Positions 6,060 through 26,463 of a stretch of DNA of 64,000 nt are shown in pieces (position 1 is the stretch's first letter; every line of letters begins with the position of its first letter). Origin of the DNA: Sphingomonas sp. HF-S4 (GTDB lineage: Bacteria; Pseudomonadota; Alphaproteobacteria; Sphingomonadales; Sphingomonadaceae); assembly GCF_032911445.1 (NCBI RefSeq), contig NZ_JAWJEJ010000001.1, forward strand, positions 2,418,001 to 2,482,000. Reading direction: 5' to 3'. The notes under the pieces are model-generated. The model saw only the letters and a program-made list of their open reading frames with translations. It made no database searches and was not told where the DNA came from. The position numbers and the translations under genes were made by a program.

Positions 6060-6775
6060 CCGACGCCGAACTCGCGCGCGATATCGCAACGCAAGCGGGC
6101 GCGCTGCTGCTGCGCATCCAGGACGAATGCGCCAGCGGCGATCGCGGCGACCGCGAGGCCAATGCGCTGATCCTCGACTGGCTCGAAACCGCGCGGCCCG
6201 ACGACGCGATCCTCTCCGAAGAGAGCGCCGACGACCTCGCGCGGCTGGAGCGCAGCCGGGTGTGGATCGTCGATCCGCTCGACGGCACGCGCGAATTCGC
6301 CGAGCGGCGCGACGACTGGGCGGTGCATGTCGCGCTGGCGGTAGACGGCCGTGCGGAAGTCGGCGCGGTGGCGCTTCCACGGCTGGGGCTAACCTTGTCG
6401 AGCGCCGCGCCGCCCGCGTTGCGCGACCCGCAGACGCCGCCACGGATGCTGGTGAGCCGGACGCGACCGAGCGCCGTCTGCACCGACGTGGCGGCGCGGA
6501 TCGGCGCGGTGCCGGTGGGCATGGGCTCGGCGGGTGCGAAGGCGATGGCGGTGGTGCGCGGCGAGGCCGAGATATATCTGCACACCGGCGGCCAGCACCA
6601 ATGGGACAATTGCGCGCCGGTCGCGGTCGCGTTGGCGGCCGGACTGCACGCCTCGCGCGTCGACGGATCGCCGATCGTGTACAATTCACGCGAGACGAGC
6701 ATTCCGGACCTGCTGATCTGCCGCAAGAAATGGGCAGAGGTGGTGCTGGACGCGGTCAAGGGGTGTGGGGGCTAG
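6056..6775 (+). CDS. cysQ: 3'(2'),5'-bisphosphate nucleotidase CysQ
   Basis: An inositol-monophosphatase-fold enzyme that hydrolyses 3'-phosphoadenosine 5'-phosphate left after PAPS use. Metal-binding motifs are seen: EESADD, then [10 protein letters not shown], and QWDNCAP near the C terminus in place of the commoner WDxxAG. Length about 239 residues. The start is taken as the TTG at 6056, with GGAG 9 nt upstream, overlapping the cysNC stop by 4 bases; GTG 6041 is an alternative. The location directly behind cysNC fits PAP recycling in sulfate assimilation. Confidence 0.88.
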
Positions 6776-6787
6776 AGCGCTCCAATT

Positions 6788-6864
6788 CCGTTCGTTTCGA
6801 GCGTAGTCGAGAAACGCTTGCGCATTCCCTGAACCCGTTTCTCGACTTCGCTCCAAACGAACGG
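6788..6864. repeat. intergenic inverted repeat (CCGTTCGTTTCGAG type)
   Basis: A 29-base arm starting CCGTTCGTTTCGAGC is followed, after about 20 bases, by its near-perfect reverse complement ending AAACGAACGG. It lies just after cysQ and may act as a transcription end or REP-like element. Confidence 0.75.
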
Positions 6865-6887
6865 GGAAGAATTGCCCTTCCACATAC

Positions 6888-6992
6888 GTCACCCCGGCCT
6901 TGTGCCGGGGTCCACTGAGCCGTCATCGACTAGCTAGAGGCGATAGGGGCTCGCGTGTCGCGCGGTGGATCCCGGCACAAGGCCGGGGTGAC
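6888..6992. repeat. intergenic inverted repeat (GTCACCCCGG type)
   Basis: GTCACCCCGGCCTTGTGCC at 6888 onward is repeated in inverse orientation ending at 6992 (GGCACAAGGCCGGGGTGAC), with about 50 bases between. Each arm is itself a short hairpin. A related degraded element occurs near 59140-59216. The rest of the gap to the next gene holds nothing else I recognise. Confidence 0.75.
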
Positions 6993-7152
6993 GGGATAGG
7001 AGTGCGGCGTGATTGACCGCGACTCGCGGACTCACCGCGAGTCGCGCGTGGACGAGAGTCAACGGACATGGTAAACGGCGCCCCGGGGAGGGGCGGTTCT
7101 GGGCGACATCTGGTTCCTGCTGGCGATCGGGCTGAGCTTTGCCGGCTATGCC

Positions 7153-8238
7153 GTGTACCTGCTCGGACTGCGGCGCCATAGCGTCCAACCCAATCGCGCG
7201 TCGTGGCTGATCTGGGCGGCGGCGACCGCGATCGAGGCGCTCACCTATAGTGCCGTCAATCCGGGCGCGCCGCAGGCATTGGTCTTCATGGTCTCGGCCG
7301 CCGCGTGCATCACAGTGACGCTCGCGGTGTGGCGGCGATCGGCCTGGGCGCCGCCCTCGCCTGCCGAGAGCTTCTGCATGGCGGCGTCGCTGACTGCTTT
7401 GGTACTGTGGCTGGTGCTCCGCGAGGCATTCTGGGCGCACATGCTGGTGGTGGTCGCGGTGCCGGTGAGCTTCTGGCCGACCTGGGCGAGCGTCTGGGCC
7501 GACCGCTCGCGCGAGCGCTCGCCGGCCTGGGGGCTGTGGACCTTCGGCGACCTGGCGACGCTGCTGATCGCGGTGCGCGGGCCCGAGCTGGGGCTGGCCG
7601 AGCTCGGCTATATCCTGGTCGAATTGCTCTGCCATGCCAGCGTGTGGTTCCTGATCGGGCTGGCGACGATCAACCCGCTGCGCTCGCTGGGCCTCCGGCG
7701 CGGCGGGCTGCGCGTGTTCGAGCGCTACCGGCCTTCGGCCAATCTGTTCAGGGTCGGCGACAACCATCTCGGCAAGGCGGTGTATGCAGCTTCGGGCTTC
7801 GCCGAAGGCGACGTGCTGCTCGAATTCACCGGCGCGCGGCTGCATGCCGATCAGGTGCCGCGGCGGATGCAGGGCGCGGGCGACCGCTTCGTCCAGGTGA
7901 CGCCCGACCAGTATATGGGGCCCTCGGGCCAGCTCGACGACCTGGTCAACCATAGCTGCGCGCCCAATGCCGGGCTGCGCTTCGCCGAAACGGGCGTTTT
8001 CCTGATCGCGGTGCGCGATATCGCGGCGGGCGAGGAGATCTGCTGGGACTATTCGACCACGCTGCGCGCGTCGAACTGGCGGATGCTGTGCCACTGCAAG
8101 GCGCCGGGATGCCGGCGGGTGATCGGGAATTTCGAGACCCTGGATGCCGAGCGGCAGGCGTGGTTCCGGGCGCGGAACCTGGTGGCGCCGTATCTGCGGG
8201 ATCAAGAGGGCTTGGCGGACCGACGCATTGCCGGTTGA
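7153..8238 (+). CDS. membrane-anchored SET domain protein (SET plus post-SET)
   Basis: The first ~175 residues are hydrophobic with about five to six membrane segments. Residues ~185-325 form a SET domain with the cofactor motifs VNHSCAPN (NHSC 266-269) and GEEICWDY (293-300), then a post-SET zinc motif C-x-C-x4-C (C313, C315, C320) that would complete a zinc site with C269. SET proteins are S-adenosylmethionine-dependent lysine methyltransferases; the substrate here is unknown. Start doubtful: the GTG at 7153 lies inside the first hydrophobic segment, whereas a strong GGGGAGG at 7085-7091 lies 7 nt before an in-frame CTG at 7099 that would give a full first helix. An in-frame stop at 7072-7074 limits any extension. 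Confidence 0.75.
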   Translation: MYLLGLRRHSVQPNRASWLIWAAATAIEALTYSAVNPGAPQALVFMVSAAACITVTLAVWRRSAWAPPSPAESFCMAASLTALVLWLVLREAFWAHMLVVVAVPVSFWPTWASVWADRSRERSPAWGLWTFGDLATLLIAVRGPELGLAELGYILVELLCHASVWFLIGLATINPLRSLGLRRGGLRVFERYRPSANLFRVGDNHLGKAVYAASGFAEGDVLLEFTGARLHADQVPRRMQGAGDRFVQVTPDQYMGPSGQLDDLVNHSCAPNAGLRFAETGVFLIAVRDIAAGEEICWDYSTTLRASNWRMLCHCKAPGCRRVIGNFETLDAERQAWFRARNLVAPYLRDQEGLADRRIAG

Positions 8239-10332: not shown

Positions 10333-12197
10333 CAGCCGTGCGTGCCGCAGGCCGCGGCCTCGAGCTGCGTTTCCGCCTCCGAACGGCCGAGCAGGGTGCC
10401 GCGCTCGGCGAGCATCTGCGCATCCTCGGCATCGATCGGGCGGGACAGGAAATAGCCCTGCATGTGGCTGCACCCGGCGAGGCGGAGCGCCTGGAGCTGG
10501 GTGTCGGTCTCGACGCCTTCGGCGACGACTTCCATGCCGAGCGCGCGGCCGAGATGGATCACCGAATGGACGATCGCCGCGCTCTCGCGCTCGCGGCCCA
10601 TGCCGTCGACGAAGCTGCGGTCGATCTTGAGGCAATCCAATGCGAAGCGGCGGATATTGTAGAGCGACGAATAGCCGGTGCCGAAATCGTCGAGCGCGAT
10701 GCGGAAGCCCATCTGCCGCAGCTTGAACAGGATCTCGGCGGCGCGCTCGACATTGTCGAAGATCGCGGTCTCGGTGATCTCGATCTGGAAGCGGCCGGGA
10801 TCGACACCGGCGCTGGTCACGCGCTCGACGACATGCGCGACGAAATTCTGGCGGCGGAACTGGCGCGGGCTGAAATTGACCGAGACGTATTGGCCGGGCC
10901 AGGTCTTCAAGGCGACGATCGCCTCGTCGATCACCCAGTCGCCGAGCTCGTGGATCAGCTGCGATTCCTCGGCGATCGGGATGAACATCGCCGGCGGGAC
11001 CATGCCGTATTCTGGGCTGCACCAGCGGATCAGCGCCTCGAACCCAGTGATGTCGAGGTCGCGGCCGACGATCGGCTGGAAGACGAGCTTGAGCTCGCCC
11101 TTGGCGATCGCTTCGGACAGCCCGGTTTCGATCTGGCGGCGGAAACGGATCGATTCGTCCATGCTCTCGTCGAACACGCGCACGCAGCCGCGGCCCTGGC
11201 GCTTGGCTTCGTTGAGCGCGAGATCGGCGCGGCGCATCACGTCGATCGGATCGCCGATGCTGCCGGGCTCGACGACGATCAAGCCGAGGGAGGCACCACC
11301 CTGGACCGAATGGCCGAACACCTTGAAGCTGGTGCTGACTGCCTTGAGCAGGCGCTCGCACTGCATCGCCGCATCGTCCTCACCCTCGACCGGCATCAGC
11401 AGCGCGAATTCGTCGCCACCCAGCCGCGCGACGAAGCCGTCGCCCGGGATACCGGCCTGGAGGATCTCGCAGACCATGCGGATCAGTTCGTCGCCCGCCA
11501 GGTGGCCAAGCGTGTCGTTGACCAGCTTGAAGCGGTCGAGGTCCATCATCGCCATCGCGAAGCAATGCGTGCCCTTCACCGACTGGCCGAGCGCGTGGAG
11601 GAAGGCGAGGCGATTGGGAGCGTCGGTCAGCGAATCGTGGTTGGCCACGTGGACCGCGCGCGATTCGTTGGCGGCAAGTTCGAGCTTTTGTTCCTCGAGC
11701 AGGGCAATGGCGTTCTTGAGCTCGAGGTCGAGCGTCCAGCGGCGGGCGAGCGCAGTGGCGGTCTGGAGCACTTCCTCGGCCTGGAAGGGCTTGGCGATGT
11801 AGAAGATCTTGTCGGCGGGCCCCGCAGCGCGGCTGATGTCGAGCGGGCTATGGTCCGAGAAGCCGGTGACGATGACGAGGTTGATATCGGGGTCGAGCGC
11901 ACGGATCCGGCGCGCGGTTTCCTTGCCGTCGATGCCCGGAGGCATGCGGACGTCGAGGAAGGCGACCGAATAGCGTTCACCGCTGCGCAGCGATGCCTCG
12001 ACCGCGGCGACGGCGTCGAGGCCCTGCATATGGTGGTCGCAAGCGAAGGCCGGAGCGGGCTCGGCGGGTTCGCTCTCATCGCCGAACAGCTCGGCGGCCA
12101 TTGCGCCCAGCGCCTCGGCACCTGCCGGCGGCGGCGCGAAGCACTGGCGATAGGAATCGTGCATCGCCGGCTCGTCGTCCACGATCAGAATGCGCAC
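10332..12197 (-). CDS. response regulator with GGDEF and EAL domains
   Basis: 621 residues: receiver domain with phospho-acceptor D82 in FLDVRMPPG and an acidic pocket in VDDEP; a coiled linker ~150-180; GGDEF domain with intact RLGGDEF (260-264); EAL domain with FEAL (386-389), EITETAIF, ALDDFGTG, LKIDRSFV and AEGVET. Both c-di-GMP synthesis and breakdown motifs look intact, so the net activity is probably set by phosphorylation. The receiver carries an extra Ala/Pro/Glu-rich insertion at about residues 21-55. It is the first gene of a two-gene operon with the CHASE4 kinase, its probable phosphodonor. Confidence 0.92.
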   Translation of the reverse strand: MRILIVDDEPAMHDSYRQCFAPPPAGAEALGAMAAELFGDESEPAEPAPAFACDHHMQGLDAVAAVEASLRSGERYSVAFLDVRMPPGIDGKETARRIRALDPDINLVIVTGFSDHSPLDISRAAGPADKIFYIAKPFQAEEVLQTATALARRWTLDLELKNAIALLEEQKLELAANESRAVHVANHDSLTDAPNRLAFLHALGQSVKGTHCFAMAMMDLDRFKLVNDTLGHLAGDELIRMVCEILQAGIPGDGFVARLGGDEFALLMPVEGEDDAAMQCERLLKAVSTSFKVFGHSVQGGASLGLIVVEPGSIGDPIDVMRRADLALNEAKRQGRGCVRVFDESMDESIRFRRQIETGLSEAIAKGELKLVFQPIVGRDLDITGFEALIRWCSPEYGMVPPAMFIPIAEESQLIHELGDWVIDEAIVALKTWPGQYVSVNFSPRQFRRQNFVAHVVERVTSAGVDPGRFQIEITETAIFDNVERAAEILFKLRQMGFRIALDDFGTGYSSLYNIRRFALDCLKIDRSFVDGMGRERESAAIVHSVIHLGRALGMEVVAEGVETDTQLQALRLAGCSHMQGYFLSRPIDAEDAQMLAERGTLLGRSEAETQLEAAACGTHG

Positions 12198-12533
12198 GTC
12201 GATATCCCCCGAAATCTATCGGAACATGGTAAATACATGGGGTTAACGCAGTGTGAAACTCGTTACGCGGGCGGCGAAGCGTGCGGTACAAACCCGTAGC
12301 GGCGTTTCCCCGAAGAGACGGCGGCACACCCACGGCGTAGAGAGAGCGTGCGGACGGCGTCGTACCTCCCTAGTCGTCCGCCAGTAATCGCGTGCGCGTC
12401 TCCATCCCCCTGGAGCACGGCATCGCCCGGGAACAAGCCGGAGCGCTGAAGGATCCTCCCCAGCGGCTCCGGCTTGACCTGTTTACCTGGCCCCCGCCCC
12501 GCACTACGCCTCCGATGTCGATTTGGAGGATTC
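12198..12533. other. divergent intergenic region with hairpin
   Basis: This gap separates the divergent response-regulator and lyase genes. CAAGCCGGAGC (12434-12444) pairs with GCTCCGGCTTG (12466-12476), a strong stem lying about 60 bases before the lyase start. The region near 12215-12260 is less GC-rich and is the likely promoter area for the minus-strand operon. No gene is seen. Confidence 0.5.
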
Positions 12534-13406
12534 ATGGCCGACCCGCTCATCGCCCGCTCGCTGCTGTTCGCTCCCGGCGATTCCGCGCGCAAGCTGGCCA
12601 AGGCCGGTGCGAGCGGCGCCGACCTGGTGCTGTGCGATCTCGAGGACGCGGTCGCCGCGGCCAACAAGGACGCGGCACGCGCGCTCGTCGCCGAGCATCT
12701 GCGCACCACCGAACGCGCCCAGCCGCAATGGGTTCGGATCAACCCGCTCGATACCGAATATGCGCTTGCCGACCTTGCCGCGATCGTTCCGGCGAAGCCC
12801 GACGGGATCATGCTGCCCAAGGCGACGCGCGCCGAGGCCGAGCGGCTGCACCATTACCTCACGGCGCTGGAAGCCTCTGCCGGGCTGCCGGTCGGCGCCA
12901 TCCGCACGATCGTCGTCGCCACCGAGACTGCGCCTGCATTGTTCGGCCTGGGCGACTATGCCGGCACCCCGCGCCTCGCCGCGCTGACCTGGGGCGCCGA
13001 AGACAGCGCCACCGCATTGGGCGCGACCGACAATCGCGACGAAAGCGGCGAGTACGACTTTCCCTACCAGCTGTTCCGCGCGCTCGCGCTGTCCGGTGCG
13101 GCGGCGGCGGGGGTGACACCGATCGAGACGATCCACGGCGACTTCCGCGATCTCGACGGGCTCGCCAAGGTCGCCGCCAAGGCGCGCCGCACGGGGTTTC
13201 GCGGGATGATGGCGATCCATCCCGACCAGGTGGCGGTGATCAACCGGGCCTTCTCGGCTTCCGCAGCCGAAATCGAGCGCGCCGAGGCGATCGTCGCGGC
13301 GTTTGCCGCCAATCCGGGCGCCGGGACGATCGGGCTCGACGGGGCGATGCTCGACATGCCGCATCTGAAGCGCGCCCAGGCAGTGCTGGCGATGCAGAGA
13401 AGCTGA
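12534..13406 (+). CDS. HpcH/HpaI aldolase / citrate lyase beta-like (CoA ester lyase)
   Basis: 290 residues of the CitE/malyl-CoA lyase fold, a TIM barrel that cleaves or hydrolyses CoA esters using Mg2+. Seen are RSLLFAPGD at the N terminus, LCDLEDAV, VRINPLDT, DGIMLPKA, VVATETAPA, LTWGAEDSAT and GMMAIHPDQV. These are typical of the CitE-like subgroup found without the other citrate lyase subunits. The substrate (malyl-, citramalyl- or methylmalyl-CoA) cannot be told from sequence. The start is firm: GGAGG lies 5 nt before ATG 12534. No metabolic neighbours suggest a pathway. Confidence 0.85.
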   Translation: MADPLIARSLLFAPGDSARKLAKAGASGADLVLCDLEDAVAAANKDAARALVAEHLRTTERAQPQWVRINPLDTEYALADLAAIVPAKPDGIMLPKATRAEAERLHHYLTALEASAGLPVGAIRTIVVATETAPALFGLGDYAGTPRLAALTWGAEDSATALGATDNRDESGEYDFPYQLFRALALSGAAAAGVTPIETIHGDFRDLDGLAKVAAKARRTGFRGMMAIHPDQVAVINRAFSASAAEIERAEAIVAAFAANPGAGTIGLDGAMLDMPHLKRAQAVLAMQRS

Positions 13407-13478
13407 GCCGTTTCAGTTGATTATCCCGCCGCCGCTACTAGGGTTGCAGGCGTTGCAGTCGGGGGCGCGTACCGCAGG

Positions 13479-15230
13479 ATGAGCGAAGTCGGGCACGAAC
13501 CCTTGCCGGTGGGCGAGGACGAGTTCCGCATGATCGCGGACAGCGCACCGGTTGCGGTGTGGGTGACGCGGCTCGATCGCACGCGCAGTTTCGTCAACCG
13601 CGCCTATGTCGAGTTCCTCGGCGTATCCTATGACGAAGCGCTCGCCTTCGACTGGCGGCGGATCATCCACCCCGAGGACACCGCGCGGCTGCTCGCGGAA
13701 TCGATCGCGGGCGAGGCGAGCATGGCGACCTTCGCGCTCGAAGGCCGCTACCGTAGCGCCAAGGGCGAATGGCGCTGGCTCCACTCGACCTCTTCGCCGC
13801 GCCGCGACGCGCAGGGACGGCATATCGGCTTCATCGGCGTCGCGCACGACGTCACCGAAGCCAAGCTCGCCGAGCTCGCGCTGCGCGACAGCGAGGCGCA
13901 GCTTTCGGCGTTCATCGCGCAATCGACCGCGGGGTTCGCGCAGGTCGATCTCGACGGACGCTTCACCCTGGTCAACGACCGGTTCTGCGAGATCGCCGGG
14001 TGGAGCCGGGAGGAGCTGATGGCGATGCGGATGCTCGAGATCACTCATCCCGACGACCGCGGACGCAACCGCCCGCTGTTCGACCGCGCGGTGGCGATTG
14101 GCGAGCCCTACACCCACGAGAAGCGCTACATCCGCAAGGACGGCGGGGTCGTCTGGGTCAACAATTCGGTGTCGGTGATCCGCCGGCCCGACGGCGAGCC
14201 GTTCGGGGTGCTGGCAGTGACGATCGACGTCACCGATCGGCGCGAGGCCGAGGCGCGGCTGCGCGAGAGCGAGACGCGGTTCCGCACGATCTTCGAACAG
14301 GCCAACGACTTCCTGATCACCACGACGCTCGACCAGGTCATCACTTCGGTGAACCCGGCGGTCGCCGCGGCGCTGGGCTATCCTGAACATGAAATCGTCG
14401 GCGCGACCATCGGCGACTTCATGGCGCCCGACCAGCTCGCACTGGCGATGGAAGCGTTCGAGCAGAAGGTGCGCGAGGGCGGCAGCACGCGGCTGACCGT
14501 GACGGTGCGCGCGCGCGACGGGCGGCCGCTGACATGGGAGATCAACTCGCAGCTCACCACCGATGCCGAGGGCAAACCCATCGCGCTCCACGCGATCGGC
14601 CGCGACGTGACCGAGGCCAAGCGCGCCGAGACGCACCTGCGGCTGCTGGTCGACGAGCTCAACCACCGAGTGAAGAACACGCTGGCGATCGTTCAGGGCG
14701 TCGCGCGGCAGAGCTTCAAGGACGCCACCGATCCGGCGATCGCGCGCGCGGCGTTCGAAGGGCGGCTGGCGGCGCTTTCGGAGGCGCACAATCTCCTGAC
14801 CCGCGAGCATTGGGGCACGGTGTCGATGGCGCAGATCATCGGCGACGCGGTGGCGCCGCATGGCGGCAAGCAGGACCGTTTCAGCCTCGCCGGGCCCGAT
14901 TTGCCGATCCTGCCAAAGACCGCGATCAGCCTGGCGCTGGCGATCCACGAGCTGGCGACCAATGCGGTCAAGCATGGCGCGCTGTCGGTGCCCGAGGGCC
15001 GTGTGGCGATCCGCTGGGCGCGCGGGCTCGCCGATGGCCGGGCGCGGCTGTCGCTGGTCTGGGAAGAGCGCGACGGGCCCGAAGTTGTGACGCCGACGCG
15101 GCGCGGCTTCGGCACGCGGATGATCGAGCGCGGGCTCGCCGCCGAGCTGGGCGGCCAGGTGACGATCGAGTTCCGGCGCGCGGGGCTGATCTGCACGGTC
15201 GACGCGCCGCTCCCCGAGGGCGCCGAATGA
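13479..15230 (+). CDS. PAS-domain HWE-family sensor histidine kinase
   Basis: 583 residues, no membrane helices, so cytoplasmic. Three consecutive PAS/PAC units (~15-135, ~140-260, ~265-385), the first two ending in DVTEAK and DVTDRR and the last in RDVTEAKRAE. The kinase core is of HWE type: DELNHRVKNTLAIVQG around the phospho-His, GRLAALSEAHNLL, HELATNAVKHGAL as N-box, and WEERDGP supplying the W-E signature. The ATG of the next gene, a single-domain receiver, overlaps its stop (ATGA), so kinase and receiver form a pair. HWE kinases of alphaproteobacteria often sense light or redox through PAS domains; no flavin-binding LOV signature was seen. Confidence 0.9.
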   Translation: MSEVGHEPLPVGEDEFRMIADSAPVAVWVTRLDRTRSFVNRAYVEFLGVSYDEALAFDWRRIIHPEDTARLLAESIAGEASMATFALEGRYRSAKGEWRWLHSTSSPRRDAQGRHIGFIGVAHDVTEAKLAELALRDSEAQLSAFIAQSTAGFAQVDLDGRFTLVNDRFCEIAGWSREELMAMRMLEITHPDDRGRNRPLFDRAVAIGEPYTHEKRYIRKDGGVVWVNNSVSVIRRPDGEPFGVLAVTIDVTDRREAEARLRESETRFRTIFEQANDFLITTTLDQVITSVNPAVAAALGYPEHEIVGATIGDFMAPDQLALAMEAFEQKVREGGSTRLTVTVRARDGRPLTWEINSQLTTDAEGKPIALHAIGRDVTEAKRAETHLRLLVDELNHRVKNTLAIVQGVARQSFKDATDPAIARAAFEGRLAALSEAHNLLTREHWGTVSMAQIIGDAVAPHGGKQDRFSLAGPDLPILPKTAISLALAIHELATNAVKHGALSVPEGRVAIRWARGLADGRARLSLVWEERDGPEVVTPTRRGFGTRMIERGLAAELGGQVTIEFRRAGLICTVDAPLPEGAE

Positions 15231-22488: not shown

Positions 22489-22953
22489 GTGGGTCGGTTT
22501 GGGGGGATGATAAAGGTGGGCGCTTCCGTCACGCCTAAGCCCGTGGGCGCCTTCGGGTTCGGCGGCCGGATCGCCGTCGCGAGGCTCGCCGAGCTCGTCC
22601 AACTCACCTTGGTCGCCGATGCGGCGATCATCGATCTTCGCGCTTATGCCGAGCGCCAGCGCGCGATCGGCGCCGCCGAGTGCCTGGAGACCGCGGGCAT
22701 CCTGTTGCCGGGCGGCAAAACCGAATTCGCCGAAGCGATGTTGTGGCAACTCGCCGACCCGATTGAGGCCGGGGCGAACGGCTTTTCTTCTTATGCCGGA
22801 GCGCCGCTGCACGATGCCGACGGCGCGCTGCTCGGGCGGATCGTGGCGCTCCAGCGCGGCCAGCGCAGCTTCGACGGGCACGACCTCAAGATCCTGCGCA
22901 CCGTCGCCGATATCGTGACGGACCTGCTGGCGCCGCCTCAGCCGGCCAGCTGA
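22489..22953 (+). CDS. GAF-like domain protein
   Basis: 154 residues. After a short basic head, residues ~25-145 read like a single GAF fold: RLAELVQLTLVADAAIIDLR, a central ADPIEAGANGFSSYAGAPL and LGRIVALQRGQRSFDGHDL. The last stretch (LLGRIVAL ... DLKILRTVADIV) is the usual GAF end where the C-terminal helix would link to an output domain, which is absent. GGGAG lies 8 nt before GTG 22489; ATG 22507 is an alternative. Its 3' end overlaps the convergent 22938-23249 gene by 16 bp. Ligand unknown. Confidence 0.65.
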   Translation: MGRFGGMIKVGASVTPKPVGAFGFGGRIAVARLAELVQLTLVADAAIIDLRAYAERQRAIGAAECLETAGILLPGGKTEFAEAMLWQLADPIEAGANGFSSYAGAPLHDADGALLGRIVALQRGQRSFDGHDLKILRTVADIVTDLLAPPQPAS

Positions 22954-23249
22954 CGCAACATCTGGGGGGCCTCGACGAAGCGCGCGAGCCGGGCGCGTCC
23001 GCGCGCGGTCAGCGCGGCGTCGACCGCCTCGGGACCGCCTGGGCCGACAACGAACGCCTCGTAGCATACCATGCCGGAGTCGTTGAGCTGCTGGAAGACG
23101 CGGATGAAATCGACCTGGCGCTCGGTGGAGGCGTGCATGCCGACATCGGCCGGACGCAGCGTGGCAACGATCGGCCAGCTCGACCAGAGTGCCTCGACGA
23201 TCGCCCGGGCGTCGGTATCGTCAAAAGCCTCTGCGGATTCGTCGTTCAC
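22938..23249 (-). CDS. hypothetical protein (103 aa)
   Basis: A soluble acidic 103-residue protein beginning MNDESAEAFDDTDARAIVEA, with a VGMHASTERQVDFIRVFQQL segment and a C-terminal ARGRARLARFVEAPQML. No signal, membrane segment or recognised family. It converges on the GAF-like gene with a 16-bp overlap at the 3' ends. Codon use looks like that of the neighbours, supporting a real gene. Confidence 0.6.
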   Translation of the reverse strand: MNDESAEAFDDTDARAIVEALWSSWPIVATLRPADVGMHASTERQVDFIRVFQQLNDSGMVCYEAFVVGPGGPEAVDAALTARGRARLARFVEAPQMLRQLAG

Positions 23250-23597: not shown

Positions 23598-24599
23598 TTA
23601 AGCGGATCGCGCGCCCTTGCGCCATTTGGTCCAGAGGTGCCGCGCCAGCATCGCCGGGGGCATGCGCATCGCGTGTCCCCGCAAATAGAAAGCGAGCCGA
23701 GTAACCCGGGCGGTGGGCCGACCCCAGCCGTCGCGTGCGAGCATCCGCCGTTGGAACAGCGGATCGGCGGCGTCCCAGCCGTGCCACGCCGCGTCGATCG
23801 TCGTGCCGTAGAGCCTGCGCACCTGGCGCGCGGCGCGCCGGACCGCCGCGGTCAGACCATGCTGCGCGGCGCGCGCGGCAAGCCCCTCGGCGCCCTCTTC
23901 GATCAGGCAGTGGATGTCCCAAAGGTTGCGCATCCCGCCCGCAAGGTCGCCATCGGCGAACAAATGCGCGGCGGCGTGGACGATCCGGTCGGCGGGATTG
24001 AGGACGCGCAGTCCGTTGGCAAGCAGTTCGCTGTCGGCGATCAGCGCGGCGGCATCGGGAGCGATCCGCGCAGTCAGCGGCAGGATCGTGTGGTGAACAT
24101 CGATCATCCGATCGCGCTCGCGATGGATCAGCGGCGGCAACTCGTGCATCCAGCGGCGATAATAGAGATCGTCATAGGGATCGGGCTTGACCCATTCCCA
24201 GCCCGCGGCGAGCAGCAAGGCCTCGGCCTCCTCGATCCGCTCGCGTGGCACGAGGATGTCGAGATCGCCGATCGAGCGGCCGGCGCCCGCCGACAGCCCT
24301 GCGGCGACATAGGCGGTGCCCTTGAGCAGCACTACCGGCATGCCGCTCGGCCCGAGCGCACGGCGCGCCATCTCGGCTTCCCACAAGGCCGCCGCCCTGC
24401 CTTGTGCCGCCGAGGCGCGGGCGTCTTCGAGGAGGCGCGCGGCGGCACGCGGCATCGGCAACCCGTCGAGCCGGTGCGCGAGCGTGCCGATCAGTTGCTC
24501 GGCGCGGGCGATCGCGAACAGCGCGGTCCAGCCCTGGGCGTCGAGCGTCGCGGTGGAGGCTGGATCGCGCAGCGCGTCGGCGAGGATGCGCGCGTTCAT
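23598..24599 (-). CDS. nucleotidyltransferase family protein (HPr-rel-A system)
   Basis: 333 residues resembling the NTP_transf_5 group. MPVVLLKGTAYVAAG is followed by the nucleotidyltransferase signature GRSIGDLDILVPRE, whose D-x-D would bind metal, then a helical domain with DVHHTILPL and NPADRIVHAAAHLF. The start at 24599 gives an ATGA overlap with the HprK-like gene; a Met four codons earlier is also possible. Relatives occur beside HprK-like kinases and PqqD-like proteins, including some lasso-peptide clusters where kinase and transferase modify a phosphoserine. Here no lasso cyclase is present, so the substrate is unknown. Confidence 0.82.
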   Translation of the reverse strand: MNARILADALRDPASTATLDAQGWTALFAIARAEQLIGTLAHRLDGLPMPRAAARLLEDARASAAQGRAAALWEAEMARRALGPSGMPVVLLKGTAYVAAGLSAGAGRSIGDLDILVPRERIEEAEALLLAAGWEWVKPDPYDDLYYRRWMHELPPLIHRERDRMIDVHHTILPLTARIAPDAAALIADSELLANGLRVLNPADRIVHAAAHLFADGDLAGGMRNLWDIHCLIEEGAEGLAARAAQHGLTAAVRRAARQVRRLYGTTIDAAWHGWDAADPLFQRRMLARDGWGRPTARVTRLAFYLRGHAMRMPPAMLARHLWTKWRKGARSA

Positions 24600-25456
24600 G
24601 CCGCGTCCCATAGCCGCTCGACCTGGGCGAGCGCAGTCGCGGTGTCAGGATAGTCGAGCGCACGCGCCGGCACCGACCGCACCAGCCGCGTGAGCGCATC
24701 GAACCCGCGTTCGGCGAGCGCGACGTAATTGGTCGAGGCCTGGGTGAGGCGGACGAAGGTCTCGCTCGGCAGCACTTCGCGCTCGGCGGCGGCGAAGCCA
24801 TAGCTCGGGAACAGGATCAGCCGCGGCTCCGCCGGCTCGGCCATCGTCGCGATCGCGCGCGTATCGGGGACGAGATGGCGGATATCGCCCTTGGGGGTGC
24901 CGCGGAGCAGCGGGCCGAAGCGCGCGTCGGGCAGTGCCCTTTCCATCACCGCGATCGCCTGGTTCTTGAGACTGATGAGGCGCGGAAAGGCGTGGACCAG
25001 CCCGGTGACGGGATCGAGCAGCGCGAACTCGTCGCCCATCAGCCGCCAGCCGCGCGCCATCAGCAGCGCGGCGAGGGTCGATTTGCCCGCGCCGGACAGC
25101 CCGGTCATCAGCAGCGCCTGCCCGTCGCGGGCGACCGCCGAGGCGTGGAGCAGCAGATAGCGGCGCTGGCCGAGCGCCATCTGGAGGTTCATCGCCATCT
25201 CGGCGGCGAGCAGCCCCTGCGCGAGCGGCAGCGGCGCGGCATCGGGGATGACGAAGTCGCCACCGATATGCACCGAGGGGCGCAGCACGCGGCGCCACGG
25301 TCGCGCGGCGAAGAGGTGGACGTTGAAATCGGGAATGCCGTCTTCGGGCTTGGGATAGTCGCGATAGAGGTCGTTCAGCGTTGTGATCGGCGCGAGCCAG
25401 GCGCTGCCGATGCGGAACCCGATCGGGCCGATGCGGAGCGCGGTGGCGTGCCTCAC
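24596..25456 (-). CDS. HprK-related kinase A
   Basis: 286 residues with the core of HPr kinase/phosphorylase: P-loop GLSGAGKST at 119-127, preceded by LLLHASAVARDGQALL, and GDEFALL at 141-147 as the acidic metal-binding strand. The rest of the N terminus (IGPIGFRIGS, YPKPEDGIPDF) matches the HprK-related kinase A type (TIGR04352 in my recollection) rather than true HprK; there is no nearby HPr or PTS gene. Overlaps PqqD upstream and the nucleotidyltransferase downstream by 4 bp each, so all three are co-translated. A protein- or peptide-serine kinase role is inferred. Confidence 0.85.
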   Translation of the reverse strand: MRHATALRIGPIGFRIGSAWLAPITTLNDLYRDYPKPEDGIPDFNVHLFAARPWRRVLRPSVHIGGDFVIPDAAPLPLAQGLLAAEMAMNLQMALGQRRYLLLHASAVARDGQALLMTGLSGAGKSTLAALLMARGWRLMGDEFALLDPVTGLVHAFPRLISLKNQAIAVMERALPDARFGPLLRGTPKGDIRHLVPDTRAIATMAEPAEPRLILFPSYGFAAAEREVLPSETFVRLTQASTNYVALAERGFDALTRLVRSVPARALDYPDTATALAQVERLWDAA

Positions 25457-25722
25457 AGCCGCTCCACCAGCCCGGTTGCGATGAGCTCGCCGAGGCGCGC
25501 GGCGAGCGCGGCGGGGTCGGCATCGACAAGGTCGAAGCGCTCGGCAAGGCGCGCGAGCAGGTCGGTCTCCGACAGCGGCTTCTCGGCAAGCGCTTCGAGA
25601 ATCTCGGGGACCGGGCTATCGACGATGTGCGTGATGCCCGAGGCACGATGATAGATCAGCGTCAGCGCGTCGAGGGGTACGATGCGCAGCGTTTCCTTTG
25701 GGGCGGCCTGGTAGCGCATCAT
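25453..25722 (-). CDS. PqqD-like peptide chaperone, HPr-rel-A system
   Basis: 89 residues with the PqqD/RRE fold pattern: LTLIYHRASGITHIVDSPV (beta strands contacting a peptide) followed by helices ILEALAEKPLSETDLLARL and ELIATGLVERL. PqqD-like domains bind leader peptides of ribosomally made, modified peptides and deliver them to enzymes. Being first in the three-gene unit with a kinase and a nucleotidyltransferase suggests it presents a peptide or protein substrate. No precursor gene was identified for certain. The start is one of two adjacent ATGs (25720-25722 or 25717-25719), without a good ribosome site. Confidence 0.8.
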   Translation of the reverse strand: MMRYQAAPKETLRIVPLDALTLIYHRASGITHIVDSPVPEILEALAEKPLSETDLLARLAERFDLVDADPAALAARLGELIATGLVERL

Positions 25723-25741
25723 TGGGGCCGGGCTTCATTTG

Positions 25742-25950
25742 GTTCACGCGAAGACGCGAAGACGCGAAGAATAGAAAAGTGGTTCGCGCAACGACGCGAC
25801 GACGCAACGGGGGCAGGCTGCCGGGGGGCGTACGCCGCCTTCCGATACCTTCGTCGGGCGGTACTTGCGGGTTGTTGAAGGCCGCTCGCGCGGCGAAGAT
25901 CGATCGTCGCGTCGTCGCGTCGTTGCGCGGAAAACATCTTCGCGACTTCT
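25742..25950. repeat. GACGCGAAG direct repeats and inverted GC repeat
   Basis: Three tandem copies of a GACGCGAA-type unit (25745-25770) are followed by CGCGCAACGACGCGACGACG, whose inverse (GTCGCGTCGTCGCGTCGTTG) occurs at 25907-25926. The two arms lie about 100 bases apart and flank 25806-25906, which holds no gene. It separates the HPr-rel-A operon from the upstream secreted-protein gene. Confidence 0.6.
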
Positions 25951-25984
25951 GAAACGGACGCGCGGTAAAATGTCACGCCCGCCC

Positions 25985-26058
25985 CCCGTTCGTGCTGCGC
26001 TTGTTCAACATGCGGTTTGAAGAAAGAACGGCCCTTCGACAAGCGCAGGGCGAACGGG
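25985..26058. repeat. intergenic inverted repeat (CCGTTCGTGCTG type), copy 1
   Basis: CCCGTTCGTGCTGCGCTTGT is answered by ACAAGCGCAGGGCGAACGGG, with AAAGAACGG between. A second copy is at 43611-43695. It lies immediately after the stop of the 26074-26463 gene. Confidence 0.75.
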
Positions 26059-26073
26059 TGTCTACGCCAGCGT

Positions 26074-26463
26074 TCAGCCGCGCGGCATCTGCAGCGAGGC
26101 GAAGCAGGTGAAGCCGCTGGTGCCCGATTGCAGGCGGCGGATGTAATTGGTGTAGGCGCGGCTGCGCTCGGCATCGGTGCCGGGCAGCGTGCCGCCCGAA
26201 AGCGCACGCTTGACGTCCTCCGCCTTGAACGCGGTGCCGGCAGGCGGATAGGCGCCGGGCGTGCCGGCGGGAACCAGCGTGCCGTCGGCCGCGACATAAT
26301 TGCCCGCGCGGGCCGGATCGGGCACCTGGATCTCGCAATTGATCACCGACGCGCTGGTCTGCGCCAGCGCCGGGCGGATCGAGACGATCGCCGACGCGCC
26401 CGCCGCGCCGAGCATCAATGCACGACGGCGTGAAGCAACGGGTCCGGTGGGTTGATCGGCCAT
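26074..26463 (-). CDS. secreted protein with twin-arginine-like signal
   Basis: 129 residues. The N terminus PVASRRRALMLGAAGASAI followed by PALAQ resembles a Tat signal (S-R-R-x-x-L) with an Ala-rich hydrophobic core. The mature part has two cysteines (in INCEIQVPD and FTCFASLQM) that could form a disulfide, and an AERSRAYTNYIRRLQSGTSG helix. No family recognised. It lies upstream of, and on the same strand as, the PqqD-HprK-nucleotidyltransferase unit but is separated from it by 351 bases of repeats, so a link is only suggestive. Divergent from phoR. Confidence 0.7.
   Translation of the reverse strand: MADQPTGPVASRRRALMLGAAGASAIVSIRPALAQTSASVINCEIQVPDPARAGNYVAADGTLVPAGTPGAYPPAGTAFKAEDVKRALSGGTLPGTDAERSRAYTNYIRRLQSGTSGFTCFASLQMPRG

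Follow-up and report, generated by a model that had tools for sequence, protein, structure and literature searches.

The window, a stretch of 64,000 nucleotides from Sphingomonas sp. HF-S4, carries on its minus strand a cassette of three genes for a PqqD-type protein, an HprK-related kinase and a PF14907-type nucleotidyltransferase-like protein, a combination known as HPr-rel-A. A previous reading of the same DNA (the sequence-only reading) described the cassette as being without an obvious peptide. However, a 129-aa open reading frame (ORF) at 26074-26463 lies directly upstream and codes for a putative precursor. The unit extends to 26463, beyond the coordinates of the sequence-only reading, and takes in this ORF. 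The four genes very probably belong together, with the 26074-26463 protein as the substrate of the other three.

23598-24599, minus strand: PF14907 nucleotidyltransferase-like protein, 333 aa (PF14907, 165.7 bits, cut-off 31.2)
24596-25456, minus strand: HprK-related kinase A, 286 aa, GTG start (TIGR04352, 236.6 bits, cut-off 200)
25453-25722, minus strand: PqqD-type protein, 89 aa (TIGR04353, 60.1 bits, cut-off 35)
26074-26463, minus strand: putative substrate (precursor), 129-aa ORF with a twin-arginine-type signal, a mature part of about 95 aa and the tail GFTCFASLQMPRG (ORF list and conservation)
26095-26106, minus strand: C120-F-A-S123, the conserved Cys-x-x-Ser (CxxS); S123 is the proposed modified residue (alignment)
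26362-26463, minus strand: signal stretch of the precursor, residues 1-34, SRRRALMLGAAGASAIVSIRPALA, cleavage expected after ALA (read by eye)

The three overlapping genes of the sequence-only reading were confirmed. The pqqD and hprK genes share 4 bp (25453-25456); hprK and the transferase gene share 4 bp if the latter starts at ATG 24599 and 16 bp if it starts at ATG 24611. The family names proposed there also held in profile searches, and with TIGR04352 and TIGR04353 both above their curated cut-offs, the profile matches make membership of HPr-rel-A firm. A PF14907 partner, which the sequence-only reading included in its definition, is present as well and is the only PF14907 gene of the genome. 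Pfam's own PqqD model gave 13.7 bits with the PqqD-type protein, below its cut-off of 23.4.

In the window, the precursor gene is hidden from the cassette because a repeat insertion intervenes, as follows:

25723-26073: 351-bp stretch from the precursor gene to pqqD, holding an inverted-arm element and a dispersed repeat
25785-25929: element with 25-nt inverted arms (repeat search)
26032-26057: dispersed repeat CCCTTCGACAAGC[GT]CAGGGCGAACGG (repeat search)

The dispersed repeat occurs at 36 places in the genome with at most 2 mismatches, 15 of them exact, and its backward control at 0. In 78 relatives, the gap between precursor gene and pqqD measures -7 to 468 nt.

By tblastn against 30 kinase loci, the precursor ORF adjoins pqqD in 20/20 loci of the same genus, the window included, with 58-84% identity in those other than the window itself. 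A locus from another family (L010) has a relative with 38% identity, and L030 gave a weak partial match. The precursor has no NCBIfam family and no Pfam family above cut-off, and a model built from it matches its own genome once at E <= 1e-6. It has 3181 homologues in the protein database at E <= 0.001; the best 120 of these have no Pfam domain, are all named hypothetical or uncharacterized protein and all carry CxxS (120/120). Across 22 diverse precursors, the only invariant residues are R13, L16, G19, C120 and S123.

Precursor and kinase are kept or lost together in the genus. Of 121 genomes of the same genus, 99 are matched by the precursor model at E <= 1e-6, and a search with the kinase model at E <= 1e-20 gives the identical set; it includes one genome with the two genes on separate contigs (G698) and one with a cut kinase below cut-off (G685). 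For the 22 genomes without the system, the 20 that were listed are the same for both genes and the other 2 follow by elimination. We checked the phoR site in 17 of the 22, leaving out 3 incomplete genomes and the 2 unlisted ones. In 15 of these 17, gph and phoR are at most about 430 bp apart, and none of the four genes gave a match. Of the remaining two, G018 still has fragments of kinase and transferase at the phoR site, and G651 has a locus without gph. The G018 loci (L087, L167) look like a decaying cassette, with a truncated kinase and a broken transferase; precursor and pqqD were not detected there. On a PhoR tree of 37 rows, the distribution needs 7 state changes, of which 6 are forced by well supported branches. 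The sequence-only reading had named as a refutation that the genes are not conserved as a unit in related genomes, and these counts (same 99 of 121, missing together at 15 of 17 sites) speak against that. Among named genomes, 331 relatives were found, of which 80 loci were kept for analysis; all 80 have CxxS in the tail, and 78 of the 80 have pqqD and kinase in the DNA covered.

Kinases above the TIGR04352 cut-off were found in 29/41 relatives, in 7/240 genomes of the class and in 61/398 genomes of the phylum. We examined 92 kinase loci, namely 30 plus 5 plus 57 new ones; from the 61 phylum genomes, a contig-end fragment (G436) was omitted and 3 were already in the set. One of the 92 (L041) has a kinase below cut-off (187.8 bits). 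An ORF with a twin-arginine (RR) pattern lies at most 3 kb upstream of the kinase in 83/92 loci. The first pass gave 82 such ORFs in 81 loci, as L033 has two; L129 and L133 were added on a second look and are in the count of 83, outside the motif counts. Some of the 82 were chosen by hand: a short ORF in L124 was dropped, one of two was picked in L045 and L111, and L081, L121 and L134 were added by eye. The two ORFs of L033 (G027; about 6755-7162 and 7564-8109, plus strand) stand before and after pqqD, and both end in TCLQS-I. A related arrangement was seen in L084 (7349-9907) and L085 (5892-8889), where HprK-type kinases of 377-387 aa with weak N-terminal PqqD-type matches, below cut-off, have a PF14907-like neighbour; adjacent are RRRFLA-type proteins of 81-90 aa, rich in Gly, Asn and Ser, with no NCBIfam family.

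CxxS occurs within the last 30 residues of 71/82 precursors. The residue after Cys is W, F, L, Y, I or V, and Thr replaces Ser in none of them. At 40% identity, the precursors form 21 clusters, 11 of which have the motif, where shuffling of the mature parts predicts 1.53 (P = 3e-8, assuming independent clusters, which may not hold). In the same loci plus the window, CxxS was found in 1/336 other called ORFs of 80-300 aa and in 0/11 other RR-type ORFs. The motif was first spotted by eye in Sphingomonadales loci and was counted on these and the later phylum set together. In 76/82, the signal contains a hydrophobic-[TS]-[LIFMV] stretch.

The Tat (twin-arginine translocation) features of the window precursor were read by eye in SRRRALMLGAAGASAIVSIRPALA and comprise an RR motif, in which R13 is invariant in the 22 precursors, a hydrophobic stretch and Ala-x-Ala. 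The genome encodes TatC (246.4 bits). From these sequence features, we consider it probable that the precursor is exported by Tat.

PqqD-type protein: The structure model has a pLDDT (predicted local distance difference test score) of 95.3, and its best Foldseek matches are proteins that are or contain RREs (recognition elements of ribosomally synthesized and post-translationally modified peptides, RiPPs), namely ThcOx, TbiB1 with leader, McbBCD and a lasso B1 protein with leader (6jx3). TMq is 0.61-0.66 for single-domain RREs; the lasso RREs have E values of 0.01-0.07, and the best E value overall is 8.3e-3. Hence, the protein is predicted to have an RRE fold like that of lasso-peptide RREs. 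PDB sequence searches with this protein and with the precursor alignment gave no useful match.

HprK-related kinase: E86, N90, H104, G124, K125, T127, D142, E143, G190, P217 and N243 are invariant in the 92 kinases, and the P-loop, the His and the Asp-Glu are intact in all of them. A review names a catalytic His-Lys-Asp-Asp motif for lasso kinases (PMC9266682), to which H104, K125, D142 and E143 would correspond by analogy.

PF14907 transferase: A PF14907-type gene was found by tblastn in 74/92 loci, and several of the remaining 18 loci cover little downstream DNA. The alignment holds 60 of the 92, chosen by a pattern with Lys-Gly and Asp-x-Asp. These two elements are conserved by construction because they are part of the selection pattern; further residues outside the pattern are also 100% conserved in the 60.

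Characterized relatives suggest what these proteins might do. According to a review (PMC9266682), PadeK and PsmK phosphorylate a C-terminal Ser in the precursor of a lasso peptide, which PsmN then decorates with one or two hexoses, a nucleotidyl step with a host enzyme not being excluded. In the systems for linear polyphosphorylated peptides (LPPs), LppK places several phosphates on S3 of a linear peptide and does not use Thr or Tyr substitutes, and the LppB RRE recognises the leader, which a SipW-like peptidase cleaves (PMC13381572). The sequence-only reading was right to liken these enzymes to the Ser kinases and transferases of lasso peptides, and its idea of a stand-alone system for protein or peptide phosphorylation and tailoring fits as well, with the chemistry argued from analogy.

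On balance, we favour the view that cassette and precursor are a Gram-negative relative of the LPP systems in which one small protein is modified and then exported. This protein would be the product of the upstream gene, a precursor that begins with a signal of the twin-arginine type and has Cys-x-x-Ser near its C-terminus. The PqqD-type RRE would bind the precursor, with the conserved signal as the best guess for the bound stretch, and present it to the kinase. By analogy, the kinase rather likely phosphorylates the conserved Ser of the precursor, a step that would take place in the cytoplasm. The PF14907 transferase would then extend the phospho-Ser; that it does so with a sugar is a tentative suggestion taken from PsmN. 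The modified protein would leave via Tat and be cleaved by an ordinary signal peptidase. Tat moves finished, folded proteins and hence fits the export of a protein that is already modified.

Several observations weigh against this view. The RR pattern is present in all 82 precursors by construction, because the search required it. The Tat models TIGR01409 and PF10518 give no match to the window precursor, and on the L079 precursor they stay below cut-off (8.6 vs 16.7 and 11.9 vs 22.7 bits). The structure model of the precursor is poor (pLDDT 62.9), and a fold search with it returned no match. For the model of the PqqD-type protein, Foldseek gave no match at E <= 0.001, and the unrelated winged-helix protein NO66 scores as high as the RREs (TMq up to 0.69). 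Among the 92 loci, 9 have no upstream RR-type ORF that we could find (L080, L120, L122, L123, L124, L128, L145, L147 and L151, the last beginning at a contig end), and among the 80 named-genome loci, L209 and L215 have the precursor, with neither pqqD nor kinase in the DNA covered. C-terminal CxxS is missing from 11/82 precursors, including those of 4 of the 5 top-scoring kinases (G554, G041, G593 and G293; 391.8-411.6 bits). Within these 11, CxxS stands at most 15 residues from the mature start in L125, L118 and L130 (script rule) and near it, by eye, in L119 and L121. Finally, LppN, the LPP transferase, changed nothing in the test host (PMC13381572).

The family kinases of L120 (G402), L123 (G348) and L147 (G390) have no precursor found upstream; L120 and L123 sit among glycosyltransferase-like genes (by eye), and L120 has a PqqD-like ORF on the opposite strand.

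The conservation of the precursor bears on what the end product is. PqqD-type RREs normally serve peptide products, and across diverse loci only signal and tail are invariant, the mature length varies widely among the 82 precursors, and one locus (L033) has two precursor ORFs. All this would suit a small molecule or a short peptide cut from the precursor, such as a phosphopeptide signal, a cofactor or an antimicrobial, as in other PqqD-assisted pathways. However, we saw no gene for a protease or for maturation in the operon, and the archaeal-type signal peptidase of the LPP systems has no match in the genome. In addition, the mature body is conserved within Sphingomonadaceae, with 24 invariant columns across 13 precursors, which suggests that the protein itself works. 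A small end product is therefore unlikely in our judgement.

The gene neighbourhood raises another question. A PhoR-type gene lies just upstream of the unit, in divergent orientation, in 20/21 loci of the order, the window included, and a gph-type gene lies downstream in 19/21, mostly followed by glmU- and glmS-type genes (all names by eye). The chromosomal site of the cassette in Sphingomonadales is fixed. Between gph and the operon, the window has two small GAF-type proteins, one at 22489-22953 with PF01590 above cut-off and one at 22938-23249 with a weak GAF_PdtaS match. With phoR-pst adjoining the cassette in Sphingomonadales (names by eye) and a kinase related to HPr kinase, the system could be regulatory, with HPr or a similar carrier or regulator as the target of the kinase and the precursor as a mere neighbour. 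The relation shows as a PDB sequence match to HprK at E 0.019, and the canonical HPr kinase models give scores below cut-off (TIGR00679, 20.8/240 bits; PF07475, 20.5/33.3). The genome, however, has a separate, short HprK-like gene elsewhere (148-aa ORF, 24.5 bits to TIGR04352) with rapZ-like and two-component genes as neighbours (names by eye), and regulation of HPr accounts for neither the RRE nor the joint gain and loss of precursor and kinase. Because of this other gene and of what would be left unexplained, we rank an HPr-regulating role lower and regard it as quite improbable.

A thioether (lanthionine-like) ring would suit the joint conservation of Cys and Ser at a fixed spacing: the Ser, once phosphorylated, would undergo elimination and react with the Cys close to it, and the motif would mark a ring in place of a phosphosite. 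This is very improbable, as we saw no gene for a lyase or cyclase in the cassette and as the phosphate set by related kinases either stays or receives a sugar.

For the favoured view, that of one small protein modified and exported, loci outside the class offer a lead to function. In 12 longer loci, probably from gammaproteobacteria, glycosyltransferases of one sequence cluster were found near the cassette in 10/12 and an amidotransferase cluster in 10/12. The wider exopolysaccharide (XrtA) gene set is present in 2/12 (L154 and L157), the exosortase gene itself not having been searched for. In L154, genes are above cut-off for TIGR03007, TIGR03018, TIGR00236, TIGR03006, TIGR03019, TIGR03087, TIGR03088 and TIGR03108, and all these families except TIGR00236 are named for the XrtA/PEP-CTERM system. 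The glycosyltransferase and amidotransferase neighbours in this locus are those matching TIGR03087, TIGR03088 and TIGR03108. Such exosortase-associated glycosyltransferase neighbours outside the class hint at an envelope or matrix role.

The L154 amidotransferase (11721-13613) scores 1018 bits with TIGR03108 and 239.5 bits with the lasso cyclase model (cut-off 525); therefore, a distant cousin of the lasso cyclase adjoins RRE, kinase and transferase in this locus.

A more far-reaching proposal is that HPr-rel-A is a phosphoglycosylation system. Before its export by Tat, a carrier protein would receive a phosphate and then a sugar on a C-terminal Ser, and the phospho-sugar would prime an exopolysaccharide or another envelope glycan, or anchor it to protein, in Pseudomonadota. 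The signal would double as the RRE leader, so that export would be tied to modification and restricted to modified protein. We put this forward as a speculation that is unlikely to hold.

Among the open-access papers searched, we found no recognisable paper on the HPr-rel-A family or on a kinase-PqqD-nucleotidyltransferase system, and none linking the system to exosortase, twin-arginine, RiPP or Sphingomonas; the curated notes of NCBIfam may already name a target. HPr-rel-A kinases are common, as the survey of Pseudomonadota genomes shows, and the system now has a candidate target and a candidate site. Compared with HPr-rel-A as curated, all three window proteins are above the cut-offs, and the precursor with its signal and CxxS tail is an addition.

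XrtA/PEP-CTERM: The longer loci outside the class resemble XrtA/PEP-CTERM exopolysaccharide loci in the glycosyltransferase and amidotransferase clusters described above, whereas the Sphingomonadales locus is not of that type. These polysaccharide-type neighbours are a concrete lead for function.

Lasso peptides: The system resembles those of paeninodin and pseudomycoidin (PMC9266682) in its RRE, predicted to be of the same fold, and in its kinase and nucleotidyltransferase-like protein, whose lasso counterparts act on a C-terminal Ser of the precursor and add hexoses to it. Unlike in the lasso systems, the putative substrate carries a secretion-type signal and is a protein, and there is no cyclase or B2 protease in the window. 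The lasso macrolactam cyclase model NF033535 has no place in the window and matches below cut-off elsewhere, and the B2 leader protease model PF13471 has none in the window and two places elsewhere in the genome. A lasso peptide was hence rejected for the window. The sequence-only reading had reported no lasso protease, cyclase or precursor here, which stands for the first two, whereas a putative substrate gene does lie upstream. Elsewhere in the genome, the stretch G000:C1:3232676-3234585 pairs a PF13471 (B2-type) gene with an asparagine-synthetase-like gene and could be a lasso-peptide cluster; the second PF13471 gene is at G000:C1:587149-587475.

LPPs: The LPP systems (PMC13381572) are alike in having a discrete RRE, an HprK-like kinase and an NTP transferase without a cyclase, precursors of 35-200 aa whose C-terminal part varies, and a link to polysaccharide loci. 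They differ in that they are reported from Bacillota only, with a patchy distribution and frequent transfer, and in having a [Y/W]xxP leader, a SipW-like peptidase, an MsbA-like exporter and the phospho-Ser at core position 3. The cassette has a twin-arginine-type signal, a Ser that is usually near the C-terminus and a fixed chromosomal site in the order. The [YW]xxP motif was found in 3/82 leaders, the window precursor not among them, and no TIGR02228 match, that is, no archaeal-type (SipW-like) signal peptidase, in the whole genome. No MsbA-like exporter was seen by eye among the operon genes, where no model search was made. Strict LPP membership was rejected because the leader motif and the peptidase are lacking. 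If the favoured view is true, the peptide tailoring by kinase plus transferase that is known from lasso peptides and from the LPPs of Bacillota extends to Gram-negative bacteria. The leader would then be a secretion-type signal, and the site in Sphingomonadales is fixed, in contrast to the patchy pattern of natural products.

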